In this document: piece after piece, positions 14,381 to 51,375 of the stretch | How positions within the stretch are numbered: position 1 is the first letter of the stretch | Layout: every line of letters starts with the position of its first letter | NCBI RefSeq assembly: GCF_029892285.1 | Contig: NZ_JARXVM010000021.1 | Span: forward strand, 1 to 64,000 | DNA from: Rhizobium sp. SG_E_25_P2 | Lineage (GTDB): Bacteria > Pseudomonadota > Alphaproteobacteria > Rhizobiales > Rhizobiaceae | DNA length: 64,000 bases | Direction: 5' to 3' | The notes under the pieces: model-generated | Told to the model about the DNA's origin: nothing | Seen by the model: only the letters and a program-made list of their open reading frames with translations | Databases searched by the model: none | Program-made: the position numbers and the translations under genes

Positions 14381-14786
14381 AATCGCCAGTCGGCCTGTAA
14401 GCCGGGTTCTGTAAGGCTCCGGATTTCTCCGGAACGTGGCAGCCATTCATCTGGGACGCCGCTTGCGCGACGCCTCTCGCAACCCACCCGGACGACTGGC
14501 CCAGAAACAGGCCTGCCGCATGAAGCGGACGCGTCGTCCCTATTCGGTCTTGCTCCCGGCGGGGCTTGCCATGCCGTCTCCGTTGCCGGATCCGCGGTGG
14601 GCTCTTACCCCACCTTTTCACCCTGACCCGGCATGCCGGGCGGTCTGTTTTCTGTGGCGCTATCCCTGGGGTCGCCCCCGCCGGACGTTATCCGGCGCCG
14701 TGTTTCCGTGGAGCCCGGACTTTCCTCACCTCACGGCCTTTCGACAATGTGAAGCGCGGCTGCCCGGCCGACTGGCGAGGCGGTCC
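14381..14786 (-). ncRNA. rnpB: RNase P RNA, alphaproteobacterial type A
   Basis: Catalytic RNA of RNase P, which trims the 5' leader of tRNA precursors. On the minus strand the 5' part holds the highly conserved GAGGAAAGTCCGGGCTCC; further on are CAGGGTGAAAAGGTGGGGTA and, near the 3' end, CAGAACCCGGCTTACAGGCC. The ends pair with each other (GCCAGTCGGCC near 14776 with GGCCGACTGGC near 14384), which defines limits of roughly 406 nt. Exact ends are uncertain by several bases. Confidence 0.95.
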
Positions 14787-15172
14787 TTAAAGCAAGGATG
14801 CGGTTATGGGAAGGTTTTATTTCGGGAGCGTTCATGTCGACCAACCTCGATGGTGGAGACCGGAAGCAATCAGACCTCTTGGCGACGGCGCGGTTCGGAA
14901 ACGAGATTTCGACCGCGATTTCCAAGACTGTCAGCTACAGTGCCAGGCACCCGGACCAGAGCCGACTGGAAACTCCTGCAGACTTTCATCGATAGACCGG
15001 GAAAGAATGCCGGGCCGACACCCAAAAACTGAGAGAAGAGGCGCAAACAAGCAGACAAAAACAGGCTTCAATGCAACCTGAAATCCACGCCGCCTGAATC
15101 CGCTTCAAAGCATGGCGCCGTCAGGTGAATACCGCCTTTGTACGGGCGGAACATATGCATGAAGAGGTATCG
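14787..15172. other. gene-poor stretch between rnpB and an AT-rich ORFan
   Basis: About 386 bases. The first 50 should hold the rnpB promoter on the minus strand, but I could not settle on -35/-10 boxes. One small open frame (14834-14995) has a plausible ribosome site and is listed separately at low confidence. Composition shifts from GC-rich to AT-rich toward 15170, marking the edge of a foreign segment. Nothing else is recognisable. Confidence 0.4.
14834..14995 (+). CDS. possible small protein, 53 aa, unknown
   Basis: ATG at 14834 is preceded by GGGAGCG at a suitable distance. The predicted product begins MSTNLDGGDRKQSDLL, is hydrophilic, and has no membrane segment or motif I recognise. 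It is transcribed away from rnpB, and its start lies in the region needed for the rnpB promoter. It may well be a chance frame; there is no conservation evidence available to me. Confidence 0.22.
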   Translation: MSTNLDGGDRKQSDLLATARFGNEISTAISKTVSYSARHPDQSRLETPADFHR

Positions 15173-15649
15173 ATGCGTACAGAAATTGAGCAAAAGCAAT
15201 TTGAATTGGTTTTGGATATATCCGAGCGGAGGGGGGTTGAAGGCGTTAAAATATTACACTTCGTCATAGAGGAGTGTTTGAGATTTTATCAAAAAAAATA
15301 CGGGATCGATTTTTACGAAGAAATATTACAATTGCTTGAACTTAAGGGAGCGATGGAGAGCAGGATTCGACACCTCCCAAGACCCGTAAAAAGTTTATAC
15401 TATCAATTACACGCAAATAAATTTCAAATAACCGAAACTTGCGACTTCGATGAAGAAATGCAGGAAAGTATTACATTTCAAATAGACGAAATATTTTTAT
15501 GTGACGGCGTTTCGGCATCAGACGTTTTACATATCTTTGAAACAGGCCTAAAGAGAAGCAACACAGAGAAACTACCAGAATTTTACAAGCTTAACGAACA
15601 CGCTATCAATGAAAAAATTGACGCTGCCAACGACACAACAAAACTCTGA
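15173..15649 (+). CDS. AT-rich hypothetical protein (ORFan)
   Basis: Unknown function. 158 aa from the ATG at 15173, chosen because GAAGAGGT precedes it; the frame opens at a GTG at 15125. Codons are strikingly AT-rich (runs such as AAAAAAAATA, TTTTTACGAAG) compared with GC-rich neighbours, a strong sign of recent transfer. The product is soluble, acidic to neutral, apparently all-helical, with QFELVLDISERRG near the N terminus, FYQKKYGIDFYEEILQLLEL in the middle and DEEMQESITFQIDEIFLCDG later. No signal peptide or membrane span. It is convergent with an orphan ParD-like gene and next to rnpB, a spot where accessory genes can settle. Confidence 0.75.
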   Translation: MRTEIEQKQFELVLDISERRGVEGVKILHFVIEECLRFYQKKYGIDFYEEILQLLELKGAMESRIRHLPRPVKSLYYQLHANKFQITETCDFDEEMQESITFQIDEIFLCDGVSASDVLHIFETGLKRSNTEKLPEFYKLNEHAINEKIDAANDTTKL

Positions 15650-15674: not shown

Positions 15675-15935
15675 CTAGCCACGCTGGGCGCGCCGCTCCG
15701 CCTTCAGCTCGTTGAGGAATTGGATCGGGTTAATTTCTTGCGGCTCGCCGCTGGCCTTGCCATCCGCATATTCGCGTTTGAGAAATTCCAGTTCGAGCGC
15801 CCGCGCTTTCTCATGTTCTTCGAGCAGGCGGAGGCTATCGCGCATGACTTCACTGACGCTCTCATAGCGCCCGCTTTCGACGAGTTCGCGCACGAAGCCT
15901 TCGAAGTGATCTCCGATATTGTAAGCGGATGTCAT
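15675..15935 (-). CDS. ParD-like type II antitoxin, orphan
   Basis: 86 aa. The N-terminal ribbon-helix-helix region FVRELVESGRYESVSEVMRD is typical of ParD/CopG antitoxins, followed by LRLLEEHEKARALELEFLK and a C-terminal tail that would wrap a ParE toxin. AGAGGT precedes the ATG. In ParDE modules parE follows parD immediately, but here the next gene in that direction is the convergent AT-rich ORFan, and the 25-base gap has no room for a toxin. It is therefore either a degenerate module whose toxin was lost, or an antitoxin acting on toxins elsewhere. Confidence 0.8.
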   Translation of the reverse strand: MTSAYNIGDHFEGFVRELVESGRYESVSEVMRDSLRLLEEHEKARALELEFLKREYADGKASGEPQEINPIQFLNELKAERRAQRG

Positions 15936-16008: not shown

Positions 16009-17214
16009 TCACACAAACCTCGGCCTGAAATCCGCCGCCGGATAGGCCGGATCAATGATCTGACCATGAACGAGCAGTTCCGCCCCCAGCCGGCCGATTT
16101 CGTCCGAGCTCTTGGCGGCGGCGCCGCAGCCGCCGGCCATGACGAAGATCGACGGCGCGCTGGTTGGCCCGATCGCCGGGTATTTGGTGGGCTTGCCCTG
16201 GTCATGCGGATAGGAGGTGACGCAGGTTACGGGGCGAGCGTCCTTGATATCCAGCGAGGGAACGAGGCGCTTCATCATGGCGACGAGATGATCGAAATTG
16301 CGCGGGCTGCCGCCGCCCTTGAACCAGTCGCGCACGGCGTCGGTGTTTTCGAGCAGGATATCGGTCATATCGCCGCCGATTTTCAGATAATATTTGCCGT
16401 CCGGATAGAGGATCGGCGGCAGCATGTAGACGCCGAGTTCTTCCGGCTCGTCCTCGAAAATCAGCGACGGCATGGAGGCGAGCCTGAGAGCCTCGGCCTC
16501 GGAGACTTCAAACAGGCTGATCGTGCGGCCATAGACCTGCATGTCGAGAACGTCAGGCAAAAGCCCCGGCTGATTGGTGAAGCCGCCGGCTGCGACCAGC
16601 ACGCGGGCGGCGCTCACCGTCTCGCCGCCATCGAGCGAAATCTCGGCGTAACCGTGCTTCTGGGCGATCGACAGCGCCCGCTTGCGGATGACATTTGCTC
16701 CGGCTTTCTCCGCCGCGATCGTCTGCGCCGCCACCAGCCTGCGCGGGCTGACATAGCCGGCATTCACAGGCTCGAACACAGCGTCGGAGCCGTCGGGGAA
16801 ACTGAAATAGGGAAATGTCGACTTGAGGCCCTCATCGTCCAGCAGCACGGGCTCGACGCCCACCCGCGCGGCGGCGGCGCGGATATTGGCCATATAGCTT
16901 TGGCTGCGGCCGGTCTTGAGGCCGGAGATCAGGCAACCCTTTTCGCCGTAGAATGTCACGCCGCTTTTCGCCTCGATCTCCCGGTAGCGCGCGATCGAGC
17001 GGTTGGCGAGCCGCGCCCAGACTTCGTTGGGATCGATGGTGCGGGTGATGCGGCCCTCGTCGTAATGGCTGGCGAACACACCCTGATGGCTGGCCCAATC
17101 GACAGGCTCATCCGGCCCGATCAGCACGACGCCGGGAAACTGTTCGGCGAAATGGCGGGCGGCGGCGGAACCGGTCAGGCCGCGTCCGACCACGGCGTAT
17201 TGGAACTGGGGCAC
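16009..17214 (-). CDS. FAD-dependent oxidoreductase, DAO / sarcosine-oxidase-like
   Basis: 401 aa from a GTG at 17214, chosen because CGGAGA lies just upstream; the frame continues 13 codons to a TTG. The N-terminal dinucleotide fold is YAVVGRGLTGSAAARHF, and the C-terminal TCVTSYPHD resembles the segment in monomeric sarcosine oxidases where a cysteine carries covalent FAD. The family oxidises secondary or primary amines to imines with H2O2 release; the substrate cannot be read from sequence. It ends the minus-strand run begun by the HscC gene, 42 bases after the first J-like gene, but a role in that group is not obvious. Confidence 0.8.
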   Translation of the reverse strand: MPQFQYAVVGRGLTGSAAARHFAEQFPGVVLIGPDEPVDWASHQGVFASHYDEGRITRTIDPNEVWARLANRSIARYREIEAKSGVTFYGEKGCLISGLKTGRSQSYMANIRAAAARVGVEPVLLDDEGLKSTFPYFSFPDGSDAVFEPVNAGYVSPRRLVAAQTIAAEKAGANVIRKRALSIAQKHGYAEISLDGGETVSAARVLVAAGGFTNQPGLLPDVLDMQVYGRTISLFEVSEAEALRLASMPSLIFEDEPEELGVYMLPPILYPDGKYYLKIGGDMTDILLENTDAVRDWFKGGGSPRNFDHLVAMMKRLVPSLDIKDARPVTCVTSYPHDQGKPTKYPAIGPTSAPSIFVMAGGCGAAAKSSDEIGRLGAELLVHGQIIDPAYPAADFRPRFV

Positions 17215-17256
17215 GGGAAATCTCCGGACTCGAAAATGGCGAATGGCGCTCAAGTT

Positions 17257-18558
17257 TTATTGCAGAACAAGGCGCAGGAAAACAGCGGCGAGCAAAATGA
17301 AAATGCCGAGCGCCATTTTGGTTCTGTCGGGCGACCCGAAGGCGGCGGCGGCCTCTTTCAGTTCATCGAAAGGCGCGCCTTTGGCTTTCAGCGGCGCGAG
17401 ATGTTCGCTGAGCGCCGCAAGCCTCAATTTACGCCAGTTGAAGGCGGTCGACAGCGCCACGACGATATAGATGACGCTGACCACGCCCGAGAGGCCCGCC
17501 GCGCTCGGAAAATTTTCCCGGATCGACGGCGCGCGCAAAACGGCGCTGAGGATCGACAGAACAGCGGCGAAAGCCGCCAGTTTGCCGAGCCGGTAATAAA
17601 AGGCGAAGGGAACCGGAAACAGCAGCCCGACCACGGAGAACGCCCAAGGGTAGCCGCGTTCGCGAATGGCGCGCTCGAAATAGGCGATCATTTTCGGATC
17701 GCTCGCGAAGGCGCGCGCCACCAGGGTCGGATCGAGATCATCGACGCCGTCAAGCGTTTGCGGTTGTGCGCCGCCTTCAGCCGGCCCACGCCGGTCGGTG
17801 GCGTCCGACAGCGCGTCGATGAGATATTCCGCATCTTCGGGCCGCATATGGCGGAGCATTCGGCGATCGTTCGACAGGAGATCGAAGCGATGATCGAGCT
17901 CGCGCAACACCGCCGGCTGGTCATGCGGCTTGAGATCATTGGACTGGATCTGATCGAGAAGATCGCGGAGCGCCACGCCGAGGGCATCGTCGAATTCGCC
18001 GAGCGGCAGGTTTTCAAGCGCGTCGAAAACTCTCTCCCAGGCATCCAGCGGTCGCCGCCAGGGTTGGGTCTTGCGCGTCTCCTCGAGCAGTTCCCAGATC
18101 TCGGGCTCTTCGTCGAAGTCGTCATAGGCGTCCGCCGGCGACTCGCCAGCCGATGCGTCAGGAGCAGGCGTGGGATAGGATAGGTCGACAACCACCCGTT
18201 CAGCGTCGGACGGATGAGACGGCGTGAGAGCGGGCGCATCTTTCGCCTCGACCGTCACCGCCTCAGCCAGATCAAGACCGGACAGATCTGCCGCCAGGCC
18301 ATCCGCCTCGACTGAAGGGACAACCGGCGCGACCGCCGCATCCTCCGGCGAGGCATTCAAGGCAGCGCCCTCTTCCTCGCTGGTGACCCAATGGCTTTCC
18401 TCCAAGGCCGCATCGCGCGCTTCGACCAGCGCCTGGAAGCCGGCGGGGTCCTCATCCGGACGCGTCACTTTGAGCTTGCGCGCATAGGCCTTGCGGATCT
18501 GCTTCTGGTCGGAGGTCGCATCGATATCAAGAATGGTCCAGGGATAGCGACGGGTCAT
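17257..18558 (-). CDS. J-domain-like membrane protein (DjlB/DjlC type), copy 1
   Basis: 433 aa from the ATG at 18558, which overlaps the stop of the upstream paralogue as ATGA. The N terminus YPWTILDIDATSDQKQIRKA plus AYARKLKVTRPDEDP matches a J-domain, but the canonical HPD reads RPD. A long acidic Ala/Pro/Asp/Glu-rich linker follows (about residues 55-160), then a cytoplasmic region with VARAFASDPKMIAYFERAI and three or four hydrophobic segments at the C terminus (for example FSVVGLLFPVPFAFYY and MALGIFILLAAVFLRLVL). It is the third gene of an hscC-J-J group; in E. coli HscC works with the membrane J proteins DjlB and DjlC, so a co-chaperone role is inferred. Confidence 0.75.
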   Translation of the reverse strand: MTRRYPWTILDIDATSDQKQIRKAYARKLKVTRPDEDPAGFQALVEARDAALEESHWVTSEEEGAALNASPEDAAVAPVVPSVEADGLAADLSGLDLAEAVTVEAKDAPALTPSHPSDAERVVVDLSYPTPAPDASAGESPADAYDDFDEEPEIWELLEETRKTQPWRRPLDAWERVFDALENLPLGEFDDALGVALRDLLDQIQSNDLKPHDQPAVLRELDHRFDLLSNDRRMLRHMRPEDAEYLIDALSDATDRRGPAEGGAQPQTLDGVDDLDPTLVARAFASDPKMIAYFERAIRERGYPWAFSVVGLLFPVPFAFYYRLGKLAAFAAVLSILSAVLRAPSIRENFPSAAGLSGVVSVIYIVVALSTAFNWRKLRLAALSEHLAPLKAKGAPFDELKEAAAAFGSPDRTKMALGIFILLAAVFLRLVLQ

Positions 18559-19748
18559 GGCTGGGGTCCATAAACGGCGGCGCGGATGCCCGCGGCGAGC
18601 ACAAACAGGAATATTGTACCAAGCCAAGGATTCTGCGGAGACGCCACGCCGAGCTCGGCCAGACGCCGCAAGGCATAAGCAGGCGATCTTCTACGCCTTT
18701 TCAACACATCCACCCATAGCCGAAGTTGGAAAACACGCAATTGATCCGCCTTGATACCCACACACAGGCATTGGACCACATACAGCAAGATGAGCCCGCT
18801 CTGTAATGCACCGCCAAGAGGGATCATCTCCTTTGGAGTAAGGCTCAGATAGAGAACCGGTGGAAGCCCAATCAGGGCCGCAAGCCAGTAAATCCGGTGA
18901 TAAAGAGCGAAGAAATACGGAAAAAACAGTCCAAAAAGATCTACGTTGAGTGGGAAGCGGCCCGTGGTCTTCGCAATATCGCAGATCCGCAGCATGCGCT
19001 TGCTCGAGGCGAAAGTCGTCAGGATGAAAATGTCATCGACATAGAGCGGCGGCCTTTCTCGGGAAGCGGAACCGCCCGGTCCTTGTCCAATCGCAAACGC
19101 AAGGAGAGAGGCGAAATGCAGCGCTGCATCGGAACCAAAATAGTTAAGCAGGATCCGCTCGTCGCCGAAAATCTTGAAGCGACGATCAAGCTCGATCAGG
19201 ACCTGTTCGTAAGGCCCGAGTATGTCGCGTGGCTCTTGGAGCGTAACGTCCTGGAACGCGCGAGGCTGACGATGCGCCAGCCCTTCTGCAATATGGCGAA
19301 TGACCCGACCCAAAAACTGCCCCACCTCTTGTAGGGGCGCGTTCTCTACAACGTCAAAAGCGTCAGAATAAGCCGCCACGACATCGCCATTCTTCTCAAA
19401 AGCAACATCTACCTGCTCTAGCGCCTTAAATAATCGCCAGATATCAGTGGCGTCGGTCTCTTGTGGTAGTTGCGTGCCAAGCTCGGGCTGAAGCACCTGG
19501 ATAACTGGGCGGAATTTTGTGTTGGCTTCGTTCTCGTCTGCCGTCGCCGACAGGATTGCGCCGCCATGGGGAGCGGTGACCGCCAGCCGTAGCGCCTCGT
19601 TCCGCGCCGTCAAGAGCCGTTGAAACGCTTCTGGATCCTCGTCCGGCCGCGCAGATTTCAACGCGATGGCGTAGGCCTTGCGGATGACCGCAGCGTCGGT
19701 CGTCCGTGCAATCCCGAGCGTCGACCATGGATAGTCCGAGGTCTCCAT
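18555..19748 (-). CDS. J-domain-like membrane protein (DjlB/DjlC type), copy 2
   Basis: 397 aa. Paralogue of the next gene in the operon: N terminus YPWSTLGIARTTDAAVIRKA followed by AYAIALKSARPDEDP, again with RPD where a J-domain has HPD. The middle contains LDRRFKIFGDERILLNYFGSDA, and the C-terminal third holds several hydrophobic segments (LFGLFFPYFFALYHRIYWLAAL, IFLFVLAAGIRAAVY). Its codon use is somewhat less GC-rich than the flanking genes. It starts 7 bases after the hscC stop and overlaps copy 1 by four bases, so all three are probably one transcript. Confidence 0.75.
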   Translation of the reverse strand: METSDYPWSTLGIARTTDAAVIRKAYAIALKSARPDEDPEAFQRLLTARNEALRLAVTAPHGGAILSATADENEANTKFRPVIQVLQPELGTQLPQETDATDIWRLFKALEQVDVAFEKNGDVVAAYSDAFDVVENAPLQEVGQFLGRVIRHIAEGLAHRQPRAFQDVTLQEPRDILGPYEQVLIELDRRFKIFGDERILLNYFGSDAALHFASLLAFAIGQGPGGSASRERPPLYVDDIFILTTFASSKRMLRICDIAKTTGRFPLNVDLFGLFFPYFFALYHRIYWLAALIGLPPVLYLSLTPKEMIPLGGALQSGLILLYVVQCLCVGIKADQLRVFQLRLWVDVLKRRRRSPAYALRRLAELGVASPQNPWLGTIFLFVLAAGIRAAVYGPQP

Positions 19749-19755
19749 GCCCGCC

Positions 19756-21453
19756 TCAATCGCGGTTGAAGACGAATTTGTCGAACTGGTTCAGGAACGC
19801 GCGGAATTCGTCGCGCACCGCCTCGATATCGCGCAGCCGCTGGTCCTCGATCTCGGCGGTGAATTGCATCAGCCCGTCGGCGATCACCTGGCGGTCCTGT
19901 TCGAGCGCTTCGGCATAGATGCGTTCGGCGCGGGCGATGAGTTCGCGGTTTTCCTGCTGGTCGCGCGGCGCGAGCTTGATCTTGGACAATTGCTCGAAAC
20001 GCTTGGCCAACTCCTTCTCGTCGAGACCGGACTCGTTGGAAAACAATGTCTTGAACACTTCCTTGGTCGATTGCACCGTCGCCTCGACTTCGAGCGCGCC
20101 GTTGATGTCATAGGTGAAGCGCACATCCACGCTTTCATGGCCGGCCGGTCGGCGCGGGATCTTCACATTCAGCGTGCCGATATGGACATTGTGCTCGGGG
20201 CGGATGTTTTCGCCCTGATAGATGCGCAGCGCAATTTCGGTCTGGTTGTCTGACACGGTGGTGAACGGCTCGACGCGGCTGATCGGCACGGTGGCGTTGC
20301 GCTCGATCAGGGGCGAGACGACTTCCTCCCGCTTGCCGTCAGGCCGCGTGCGCATCGAGGCGACGCCGAGCGTGAAGGGGCAGACATCGGTCAGCAAAAC
20401 ATCCTCAACGGCGGCGTCGCGGCTTTTCAACGCCGACTGGATCACTGCGCCCATAGCCACCACTTCGTCGGGATTGATGGTGACGAAAGGCAGCTTGCCG
20501 AACAGGCGCGCGATCATCTGCCGGATCGCCGGCATGCGGGTGGCGCCGCCCACCAGCACGATCGCGTCGAGTTCGTCAGGCGAGATGGAGGAATCGCGCA
20601 GCGCCCGTTCGAGCGGATGCCGGAGCCGCCGCATCAGATCGGACGCCTCCGCTTCGAATTCTTCGCGCGTGACGACGCCTTCGAGGACAGCTTTTTCAAG
20701 CGTGATGCGGTAATCGAGGCTCGCTTTGCCCGACAGATCGATCTTGATCGTGTCGGCGGCGCGCAGGATGCGCGCCTGGTCGATCTTGCCGAGGCTGACG
20801 CGGTCGATATTGCTCTTGCGGAGCAGAAGACCGGCCAGCGCTTCGGTGAAATCGTCGCCGCCGAGGAAATTGTCGCCGGCGGAGGCGCGGATTTCGAACA
20901 CGCCGTCATATTTGTGCATGATCGACACGTCGAATGTGCCGCCGCCGAGATCGAAAACCAGGAACTGGCCGTCGTCGCGAGTCTCCAGACCATAGGCCAG
21001 CACCGCCGCCGTCGGCTCGTTGATCAACCGCTCCACTTTCAGGCCCGCAAGCTTGGCCGCATTGATGGTCGCCTTGCGCTGGCCGTCATTGAAATAGGCC
21101 GGGCAGGAAATCACCGCTTCGGTGATCTCCTCGGCATATCTGGATTTGTAGTCATCGATCAGCGATCTGAGAATGAAGGAAGACAGCTCTTCGGCGCGAA
21201 AGCTGCGCTTGCCGAGCGACACGACGCGGTCGGTGCCCATCCAGCGCTTGAACGACATTACCGCGGCGTCGGGATTGGTCAGCGCCATTTCCCTGGCGGC
21301 CGCGCCGACGACGATCTCGCCATTCTGATCGACATAGACGGCCGACGGCGTGAGAAAGCCGCCATTGGCGTTTTCGATCAATCTGGCCTTGCCGTCCTCG
21401 AACACGCCGATCAGGGAGTTGGTCGTTCCAAGGTCGATGCCGACAATTGCCAT
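19756..21453 (-). CDS. hscC: Hsp70-family chaperone, HscC-like
   Basis: 565 aa, shorter than DnaK (about 640) and matching HscC. The nucleotide-binding domain has [17 protein letters not shown] at the start, [11 protein letters not shown] (about residues 185-195) and [15 protein letters not shown]; the substrate domain follows with [18 protein letters not shown], and the lid is short. The ATG at 21453 (MAIVGIDLG) is the natural start. It lacks the long C-terminal EEVD-like tail of DnaK. Followed in order by two J-like membrane proteins, mirroring the E. coli HscC/DjlB/DjlC partnership. Confidence 0.88.
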
Positions 21454-21526: not shown

Positions 21527-22288
21527 TTAGCCGTCCGGCAACGCCCTCAGCAATCTGTGCAACGTGTCGATGGTGGAGGCGTCCGCGACGCCATCGATGC
21601 GTTCGGGGCGGAAATGCCGCTGGAAGGCTTCGACCACGCCGGCCGTGCGGTCGCAGAATTCGCCGCTGACCGGCGCATGATAGCCGTAGAGCGCCAGCAT
21701 CGCCTGCAGCGCTTCGACCGGAGGCCCGGCGTCGCCGCGTTGGAAAAACCGCCCGCCCGAGATGACGGCGGGTTCGACATGATGGCCGACGCCGGCTTCG
21801 GCCAGCGCCTCCCAGGGAAATTTTTCACCCGGATCGACCTTGCGCACCGGCGCGACATCGGAATGGCCGAGCACGCGCTCGGGGGCGATGTCATGACGGG
21901 CGGCGATGTCACGGCAGAGCGCGATCACCGCCTCGATCTGCGCGGCGGGAAATGCCGGCAGGCCGCCGGGATGGCCGGCATTGGCGATTTCCACGCCAAC
22001 AGAGTGGGAATTGATGTCGGCCTCGCCTTTCCAGAAGCTTTTGCCGGCATGCCAGGCGCGCTTGTCCTCGGCCACCAACTGGCTGACGCGCCCGTCTTCC
22101 CAGACGAAATAATGGCTGGAGACTTCGCTTTCGGGCCGGCGCAGCCAGTCGAAGGCCGCCGCCGCCGTGGGCATGCCGGTGTAATGCAGGATGATCATGT
22201 CGGGGCGCGACACGTCCTTGCGATCGCCGAAATTGGGAGACGCGGCCACATCGGCTTGCGCAAAATCAGGAAGGAATTGGGTCATCAA
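21527..22288 (-). CDS. N-acetylmuramoyl-L-alanine amidase (AmpD/AmiD type) with PG-binding domain
   Basis: 253 aa. Zinc amidase fold at residues 25-165: ILHYTGMP carries the first histidine, EIANAGHPGG follows mid-domain, and LGHSDVAPVRKVDPGEKFPW carries the later histidine and aspartate ligands. A peptidoglycan-binding repeat lies at about 185-245 (PVEALQAMLALYGYHAPVSG). No signal peptide is apparent, which favours a cytoplasmic AmpD role in recycling anhydro-muropeptides, although AmiD-like outer-membrane enzymes have the same domains. It starts 18 bases after the DjlA-like gene, suggesting co-transcription. Confidence 0.88.
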   Translation of the reverse strand: MMTQFLPDFAQADVAASPNFGDRKDVSRPDMIILHYTGMPTAAAAFDWLRRPESEVSSHYFVWEDGRVSQLVAEDKRAWHAGKSFWKGEADINSHSVGVEIANAGHPGGLPAFPAAQIEAVIALCRDIAARHDIAPERVLGHSDVAPVRKVDPGEKFPWEALAEAGVGHHVEPAVISGGRFFQRGDAGPPVEALQAMLALYGYHAPVSGEFCDRTAGVVEAFQRHFRPERIDGVADASTIDTLHRLLRALPDG

Positions 22289-22306: not shown

Positions 22307-23017
22307 TCAGGCCGCGCGAAGCTCGCGCTCGATGGCGGCATAGGCGGCGTTATACTTGGCCATGCGCTCATGCGCCACCGCCTGGAACGAGGTCGGCAGC
22401 CCCCGCGCGATCATCCGATCTGGATGATGCTCCCGCACCAGCGCCCGATACTGCTGGCGGATGGTCTGGAAATCATCCTTCCGCGACACGCCGAGCACGC
22501 TGTAGGGGTCGGCGCCCTCGACATAGACATGCCGGGCCAGGATCTGGGCGAAGCGGTCCTCCGAGATCTGGAAGATCGCAGCGACATTTTCGAGAAAGGA
22601 CAATTCGCGCTCATGCACCGCGCCGTCGGCCTTGGCGATGTGGAACAGGCCGTCCATGACGTTTTCGAGCATGGCGCATTCGGGTTGGCCGGATCGGCAG
22701 AGGCCGGAGAGCTTTTCGGCATAGGCTTCGAAGCCCGCGACGTCCTGTTTGGCGAGATTGTAGAGACGGGCGACATTGCGCGCCTCTTCGGCCGGGTAGT
22801 CAAAGATTTCCTGGAACGCCTCGATCTCATTGGGGGTGACGACGCCATCGGCCTTGGCCATCTTGGCCGACAAGGCGATGACGGCGACAGAGAACGCCAC
22901 CTTGCGTCGCGTCTCGGGATCGCCCTCGAACACGGTCCGGATCGCTTCGATCAGGCTCGACAAGGCGTTGGTCGCGGTGTCGGCGACTGCGCTGAAGAGC
23001 TTTTCCCAAAAAGACAT
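22307..23017 (-). CDS. TerB and J-domain protein, DjlA-like
   Basis: 236 aa from MSFWEKLFSAVADTATN; the frame stays open a further 72 codons, but without a convincing start. A TerB-like helical domain occupies roughly residues 35-150 (SAKMAKADGVVTPNEIEAFQ, then LFHIAKADGAVHERELSFLE), and a J-domain lies at 165-230 with DPYSVLGVSRKDDFQTIRQQ and an intact EHHPDR (HPD present, unlike the two J-like proteins nearby). DjlA proteins stimulate DnaK at the membrane; here there is no clear membrane anchor, only a hydrophobic patch near residue 45. Confidence 0.85.
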   Translation of the reverse strand: MSFWEKLFSAVADTATNALSSLIEAIRTVFEGDPETRRKVAFSVAVIALSAKMAKADGVVTPNEIEAFQEIFDYPAEEARNVARLYNLAKQDVAGFEAYAEKLSGLCRSGQPECAMLENVMDGLFHIAKADGAVHERELSFLENVAAIFQISEDRFAQILARHVYVEGADPYSVLGVSRKDDFQTIRQQYRALVREHHPDRMIARGLPTSFQAVAHERMAKYNAAYAAIERELRAA

Positions 23018-37937: not shown

Positions 37938-38058
37938 GTTGTGCCTGTGGATTACCGATGGCGCGCCTTATTTCGCCGCACTGCGTCATAATTTCCGCTT
38001 TTCAGACACCGAAAAAAGCGCTTAACTTCAGCCGTCAACACGAGCAGGAGGTTCGAGC

Positions 38059-38136
38059 ATGGGAATTACTCAATCCCTCAATATGGTGTTGGTTGGCGCG
38101 GCATTTTTGTTCGTCGGCGTAATGCTGTTCATCTGA
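38059..38136 (+). CDS. 25-residue single-span membrane peptide
   Basis: ATG at 38059 is preceded by AGGAGG at 7 bases, a near-perfect ribosome site. The product begins MGITQSLNMVLVGAAF and is followed by LFVGVMLFI; almost the whole chain is hydrophobic, one transmembrane helix with a short polar N terminus. A strong rho-independent terminator begins 47 bases after the stop, so this is a stand-alone small transcription unit. Function unknown. Small membrane peptides often tune larger membrane complexes, but no partner can be named. Confidence 0.7.
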   Translation: MGITQSLNMVLVGAAFLFVGVMLFI

Positions 38137-38183
38137 CAAGACGCGCCGGTAAAGGCCTGAGCCATAGGTCTTGACGGAATTTC

Positions 38184-38216
38184 AGGCGCCGGATCTTTCG
38201 ATCCGGCGCCTTTTTC
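38184..38216 (+). terminator. strong rho-independent terminator after the small peptide gene
   Basis: AGGCGCCGGAT (38184-38194) pairs perfectly with ATCCGGCGCCT (38201-38211) across a CTTTCG loop, followed by TTTTTC. Transcription on the + strand ends here; metF comes from the other side and stops at 38233. Confidence 0.88.
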
Positions 38217-51204: not shown

Positions 51205-51300
51205 ACGGGCCGAGAGTATCAGGCCCAGGGAAGGTTGCGTTGCTGTGTTGTCTGGCGGATCGGCGGCCAGAAGAGCCACCCGGAATTACACCGGGTCCTT
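51205..51300 (-). promoter_or_regulatory. structured leader of the SulP gene, possible riboregulator
   Basis: Read on the minus strand, three hairpins follow one another: ACCCGG/CCGGGT (51296-51291 with 51283-51278) around TGTAATT, CTGGC/GCCAG (51270-51266 with 51256-51252), and GGGCC/GGCCC (51226-51222 with 51211-51207), the last about 28 bases before the start codon. The first one resembles the CCGGTGTAATTCCGG core found in some cobalamin riboswitches, but the B12 box is absent. RNA motifs have been described upstream of sulfate-transporter genes in Alphaproteobacteria (I recall one named sul1). Confidence 0.35.
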
Positions 51301-51375
51301 GTGGATACCTGTCCGTAATCAAGTTTTTGACGAAGGGCAAGGTTCTATCAGGGATCATAAACGCAGAAACGTCGA

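Follow-up and report, generated by a model that had tools for sequence, protein, structure and literature searches.

An RPD-type HscC/DjlC operon in Rhizobium and the absence of HPD among surveyed HscC-linked J-like proteins

Hsp70 partners and the HPD motif

In the DnaK–DnaJ pair, each residue of the HPD tripeptide has a defined contact on the Hsp70: H33 bonds the carbonyl of L391, P34 is in contact with P419, and D35 forms bonds with R167 and Q378; changes of His33 abolish ATPase stimulation in the Hsp70s tested (PMC8215388). HPD has been described as the indispensable Hsp70 trigger, and a 2026 review gives the HPE of E. coli as its only tolerated replacement (PMC13254874). The closest described relatives of the locus studied here are E. 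coli HscC and its co-chaperones DjlB and DjlC, both of which carry HPE. According to the summary of Kluck et al. 2002 in PMC8215388, HscC is stimulated by DjlC alone and not by DnaJ, CbpA or HscB. The J-domain of DjlC is reported not to replace that of DnaJ (PMC1906734). DjlC is described as an inner-membrane protein with a tail anchor, and E. coli is reported to become sensitive to Cd2+ when it loses either hscC or both djlB and djlC (PMC8215388, PMC1906734).

The hscC–J1–J2 locus

The window, a 64,000-nt stretch from Rhizobium sp. SG_E_25_P2, encodes on its minus strand an HscC-type Hsp70 of 565 amino acids (hscC, 19756..21453, start ATG at 21453; Pfam HSP70, PF00012, 1.2e-133) and, directly downstream on the same strand, two DjlC-type J-like co-chaperones, J1 (18555..19748, 397 aa) and J2 (17257..18558, 433 aa). 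A 7-base gap separates hscC from J1, and J1 and J2 meet in an ATGA overlap, the start of J2 lying inside the stop of J1. The two J-like proteins are paralogs with 28% identity (E=1e-25).

The Hsp70 shares 41% identity with E. coli HscC across 544 aa and 37% with the organism's own DnaK, and its length falls inside the HscC-type range of 550–580 aa. It displays a 24-residue alignment gap at DnaK 76–101, in lobe I of the nucleotide-binding domain (NBD), and a 6-residue gap that removes the GrpE signature (DnaK ~290–295); the organism's own DnaK retains both. After 'LGVASM', near DnaK 405 in L1,2 of SBD-beta, it has 8 extra residues relative to DnaK, where the HscC-type insertion measures 4–8. 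A tree from which HscA and other Hsp70s were left out groups it with E. coli HscC, a long branch setting DnaK apart. Together with the J-domain alignments described below, the Pfam match, the identities and the HscC-type deletions bear out the gene identities proposed in an earlier, sequence-only reading of the window, and the tight packing of the three genes is as that reading claimed.

The three genes have an amidase gene on one side and a gene for an FAD oxidoreductase on the other. We rejected the oxidoreductase (17253..16009) as a fourth operon member, as it occupies the same place in genome G1220, where hscC is missing from the locus, a judgement made by place only. The genes just upstream of hscC, which encode a peptidoglycan amidase (21527-22288) and a DjlA-like protein with TerB and an HPD J-domain (22307-23014), were also rejected: the order djlA–amidase–rnpB–mraZ is identical in relatives that lack hscC, and so is independent of it. 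G317, a genome from a different genus, carries hscC with its J gene, but on a separate contig from the djlA–amidase locus. The hscC–J1–J2 operon is an accessory unit, gained or lost as one, because hscC-negative relatives keep the neighbour order and G317 has hscC elsewhere.

Other features of the window include a ParD-like antitoxin gene (15675-15935, minus strand) and, convergent to it, an orphan open reading frame with no Pfam match (15125-15649, plus strand); both are shared with Rhizobium sp. FKL33, a near relative of the window's genome. RNase P RNA lies at 14382-14775, sRNA Atu_C9 at 38033-38212 and a sul1 RNA motif at 51246-51301.

J-like domains with RPD

J1 and J2 have the pattern KAYA..LK..RPDEDP..FQ.L in common, and the RPD of each aligns without gaps to H33-P34-D35 of DnaJ, confirming the earlier observation that RPDEDP occupies the HPD site in both N termini. 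In J1 these residues are R34-P35-D36, and the J-domain from the start through RPD covers 19641..19748 (minus strand). In J2 they are R33-P34-D35, encoded at 18454..18462 within a J-domain of residues 1–55 (18394..18558, both minus strand). Profile alignment against PDB sequences also sets RPD opposite the HPD of DnaJ-type J-domains, with E. coli DnaJ (5NRO) among the matches. The Pfam J-domain scores of the two proteins, 19.4 and 13.2 bits, fall below the cut-off of 27.8, which E. coli DjlB and DjlC miss to a like degree, at 21.1 and 19.3 bits. Judged by these alignments, the J-domain homology of J1 and J2 is real though below the Pfam cut-off.

The N terminus of J2 is predicted to adopt the J-domain fold of three helices, RPD lying in the loop between helices II and III. 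The AlphaFold2 model of residues 1–63 (mean pLDDT 80) has helices at 7–10, 18–31 and 38–59, and the DnaJ domain of 5NRO superposes on it at 1.4 Å over 49 columns. For this model, most PDB matches from Foldseek are J-domains, with probabilities of 0.9–1.0 and, for so short a chain, E-values of 0.001 or more throughout. The full-length J2 model has a mean pLDDT of 51, and its Foldseek result is uninformative apart from the J-domain matches.

Beyond the J-domain, the long acidic linkers previously ascribed to both proteins suit J2 well and J1 weakly, because residues 56–160 of J2 include 27 that are acidic and 2 that are basic, against 16 and 8 in the linker of J1. The C-terminal membrane segments, and with them the idea of recruitment to the membrane, are upheld: three hydrophobic segments are predicted near the C terminus of each protein, by simple hydropathy rather than a trained topology predictor.

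J1 and J2 thus resemble E. coli DjlB and DjlC in having an N-terminal J-domain with a compact, 5-residue II–III loop, a gene adjacent to hscC, a tripeptide other than HPD and a C-terminal anchor (by hydropathy), and their Hsp70 belongs to the same subfamily. They differ in carrying RPD, neither the HPE of E. coli nor the canonical HPD, and in having three hydrophobic C-terminal segments rather than a single tail anchor. The window's J genes lie directly downstream of hscC in one operon, whereas those of E. coli are convergent to it, and the window has no DUF1266/Sel1 neighbours. In a BLASTP comparison of J2 with DjlC, similarity is limited to residues 7–52 and none is detectable outside the J-domain; we therefore call J1 and J2 DjlC-type on the strength of their J-domains and linkage and do not treat them as DjlB/DjlC orthologs.

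Sub-threshold Pfam scores would also be expected of degenerate remnants, that is, J-like genes drifting, with RPD as a product of decay. Against FKL33 orthologs, however, dN/dS is about 0.1 for both J-domains and 0.06 for hscC; both J-domains are under purifying selection. The frames are open, and the RPD motif is common to several classes and families of the phylum and conserved in distant relatives, all of which makes decay very improbable. Because arrangement and motif are conserved in relatives and dN/dS against FKL33 is this low, the RPD arrangement is not due to chance. The J1 ortholog of FKL33 is 93% identical, and the comparison looks mosaic, with dS at 0.47 in the J-domain and 0.10 over the whole gene, a pattern that suggests recombination in the gene outside the J-domain.

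Tripeptides across HscC loci

A contig scan with J1 as query matched FKL33 only, so we anchored the survey on hscC, using the window's HscC as query in whole-genome searches. A look at hscC neighbours across Alphaproteobacteria, as the sequence-only reading had advised, found hscC itself to be rare in the class (2 of 289 genomes); it was present in 5 of 9 genomes of the genus, 6 of 200 of the family, 18 of 398 of the phylum and, in two further families, in 23 and 39 of 198. The sample examined comprises the surroundings of 63 hscC genes, those of E. coli and the window included.

A J-like gene adjoins hscC at all 63 loci, on the same strand and directly downstream at 56 and convergent at 7. 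Their 77 J-like domains carry RPD (54), HPE (11), RPE (4) or one of eight tripeptides found once each (NPE, GPE, DQQ, DVE, DPA, DVD, DQV and DLA); none carries HPD. Thinning at 80% identity leaves 73 domains and the same picture. Pro34 is present in 72 of the 77 and an aspartate or glutamate at position 35 in 73, and the loop from residue 35 to F47 is exactly 5 residues long in every one, DjlB and DjlC included, against 11 in E. coli DnaJ. On the HscC tree, whose deep branches are poorly resolved, RPD occurs on most branches and two changes are required to account for HPE. Because most of the wider group carries RPD, HPE is a mark of the E. coli branch and one other rather than of the family. 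The window operon represents the HscC/DjlC system in its RPD form and is unremarkable for its family. RPD is unusual for a J-domain at large but not for a partner of HscC, and the exceptionality at first implied for it does not hold.

Several loci of the survey have features of their own. The seven convergent arrangements (L045, L048, L049, L120-L122 and L006) are all HPE and fall in one HscC clade. L128 and L133 have three and four tandem J-like paralogs, respectively, all with RPD. At L034 (3675-6485), an HscC-linked J-like protein with the tripeptide DVE is fused to 11 Sel1 repeats, unlike the E. coli hscC locus, where the Sel1 genes are separate.

The number of copies bears on a Pam18/Pam16-like division of labour, in which one paralog would stimulate HscC and the other, J1 or J2, would regulate or localise it by heterodimerising. 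The two diverged tandem paralogs are kept in FKL33, two are also present in G1222, and other loci have up to four (L133). Yet J1 and J2 carry the same RPD, unlike Pam16 with its lost motif, and G372, of the same genus, has a single copy; we regard such a division as improbable.

With a profile of the J-like domains, strong matches (>= 65 bits) among the 200 family genomes occur in exactly the six that bear hscC, and among the 398 phylum genomes (>= 61 bits) in exactly the 18 that bear it. Because some hscC-bearing genomes supplied rows of the profile, the telling part of this result is the absence elsewhere. The next-best 24 matches, whose loci we read in family genomes without hscC, all have HPD. 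The organism's own genome holds five Pfam-level J-domains, all HPD, and RPD is therefore no peculiarity of the organism.

A second non-HPD pair was seen in phylum genomes without a strict hscC match (L221, 2950-5701; L222, L223 and L224). Its operon encodes a TPR protein, a 110-aa J-like protein (SPD, SPE, PPD or PPE), a GrpE-like protein (assigned by eye) and an Hsp70 with 38–40% identity to E. coli DnaK and 32–37% to HscC. Mini-J proteins also occur in L213-L218.

Both sides of the interface

Compared with DnaK and its partners DnaJ, CbpA and DjlA, the window system has the same J-domain fold and tripeptide position, with RPD in place of HPD, and its HscC retains R167, Q378, L391 and P419 (DnaK numbering). 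Across the 63 HscCs, D393 and P419 never vary, Y145 is kept throughout, position 391 is always L or M, position 167 is basic in 61 (R in 49, K in 12), and Q378 is replaced by A in 20. Two changes are HscC-specific and present in all 63: L392 to T, at the linker position beside the H33 contact, and D477 to T or S. On the J side, position 48 (K48 in DnaJ) is Q in 65 of the 77 domains, and most HscC pairs lack both residues of the K48–D477 salt bridge of DnaK–DnaJ. These changes are a coherent rewriting of both sides, though a correlation within one family. The D211 loop missing from HscC was considered as a counterpart of the RPD change and rejected, as it is absent also from the organism's own DnaK, and the DnaJ of the organism carries HPD.

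A proposed HscC-specific trigger

Our preferred reading, to which we give a probability of about 0.72, is that J1 and J2 are membrane-anchored DjlC-type co-chaperones dedicated to HscC, and that RPD represents an altered residue 33 in a pair insulated from DnaK. The C-terminal helices would anchor both proteins in the inner membrane, an orientation that we infer, with the compact J-domain displayed on a flexible linker. From there they would bind HscC, recruit it to putative membrane clients and trigger its ATPase. Arg would replace His33 next to an unchanged Pro34 and a still acidic residue 35, which would keep the contacts of Asp35 with R167 and Q378 and of Pro34 with P419; Arg33 is proposed to contact the L391 carbonyl in the rewritten HscC linker (LLTDVCP). 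The altered interface would keep the HscC–J pair insulated both from DnaK and from the HPD proteins that serve DnaK. That RPD works as a trigger adapted to HscC is suggested by the fit of the window operon, with its J-domain, linker, hydrophobic C termini and purifying selection, to the published E. coli DjlC–HscC system. The lack of similarity between J2 and DjlC beyond the J-domain weighs against this reading.

The sequence-only reading had posed a choice between altered chemistry and a mere tether. The first is better put as a change in one contact, that of residue 33, since Pro34 and an acid at 35 are still there. On the second, J1 and J2 would be pseudo-J (type IV) proteins, tethering bound HscC to the membrane but leaving its ATPase unstimulated; this is a live but minority reading, and we consider it unlikely. 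The effect of His33 changes in the tested Hsp70s speaks for it (PMC8215388), recruiter-only pseudo-JDPs are raised as a possibility by the 2026 review (PMC13254874), and in 6 of the 77 surveyed domains (DQQ, DVE, DVD, DPA, DQV and DLA) the basic residue at position 33 is gone along with most of the motif; some members may therefore act without the trigger. RPD, however, is conserved across deep HscC branches, and HscC keeps the residues touched by Asp35 and Pro34. The type IV proteins Pam16 and DNAJB13 likewise have a J-domain with an altered HPD, of the kind DKE/DKS or HPL (PMC13254874), whereas J1 and J2 keep P34 and D35 and are co-encoded with a dedicated Hsp70 that retained its contact residues. 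E. coli DjlC, also non-HPD, is reported in the summary cited above to stimulate HscC (PMC8215388), so loss of the canonical HPD alone does not imply lost stimulation, and ATPase stimulation by RPD is inferred from this analogy. Of the refutation that the sequence-only reading itself had named, RPD being usual and normally functional in E. coli DjlB and DjlC, half applies: the motif there is HPE, but DjlC is reported to stimulate HscC.

Returning to the dedicated co-chaperone reading, a broader form of it seems to us evenly balanced between right and wrong: HscC and its partners would have a separately wired interface, orthogonal to DnaK, that shuts out HPD and is triggered with full effect by Arg33 or by the combination of His33 and Glu35, and the TPR/J-like/GrpE-like/Hsp70 operon would be at least one further case of the same route.

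Significance for the HscC family

A literature search for RPD in J-domains, assayed RPD J-proteins included, found none, although the original HscC paper or a 2020 survey of bacterial J-domain proteins may mention it. The point of interest is the family-wide absence of HPD among HscC partners, of which we found no statement in the literature searched. At the sequence level, our survey amends the description of HPD as indispensable and HPE as its sole substitute: in one Hsp70 subfamily, HscC, the neighbouring partners are never HPD and mostly RPD. The natural series of RPD, RPE, HPE, NPE, GPE and complete losses, each with its matching HscC, offers material for testing the role of the tripeptide and the insulation from DnaK.
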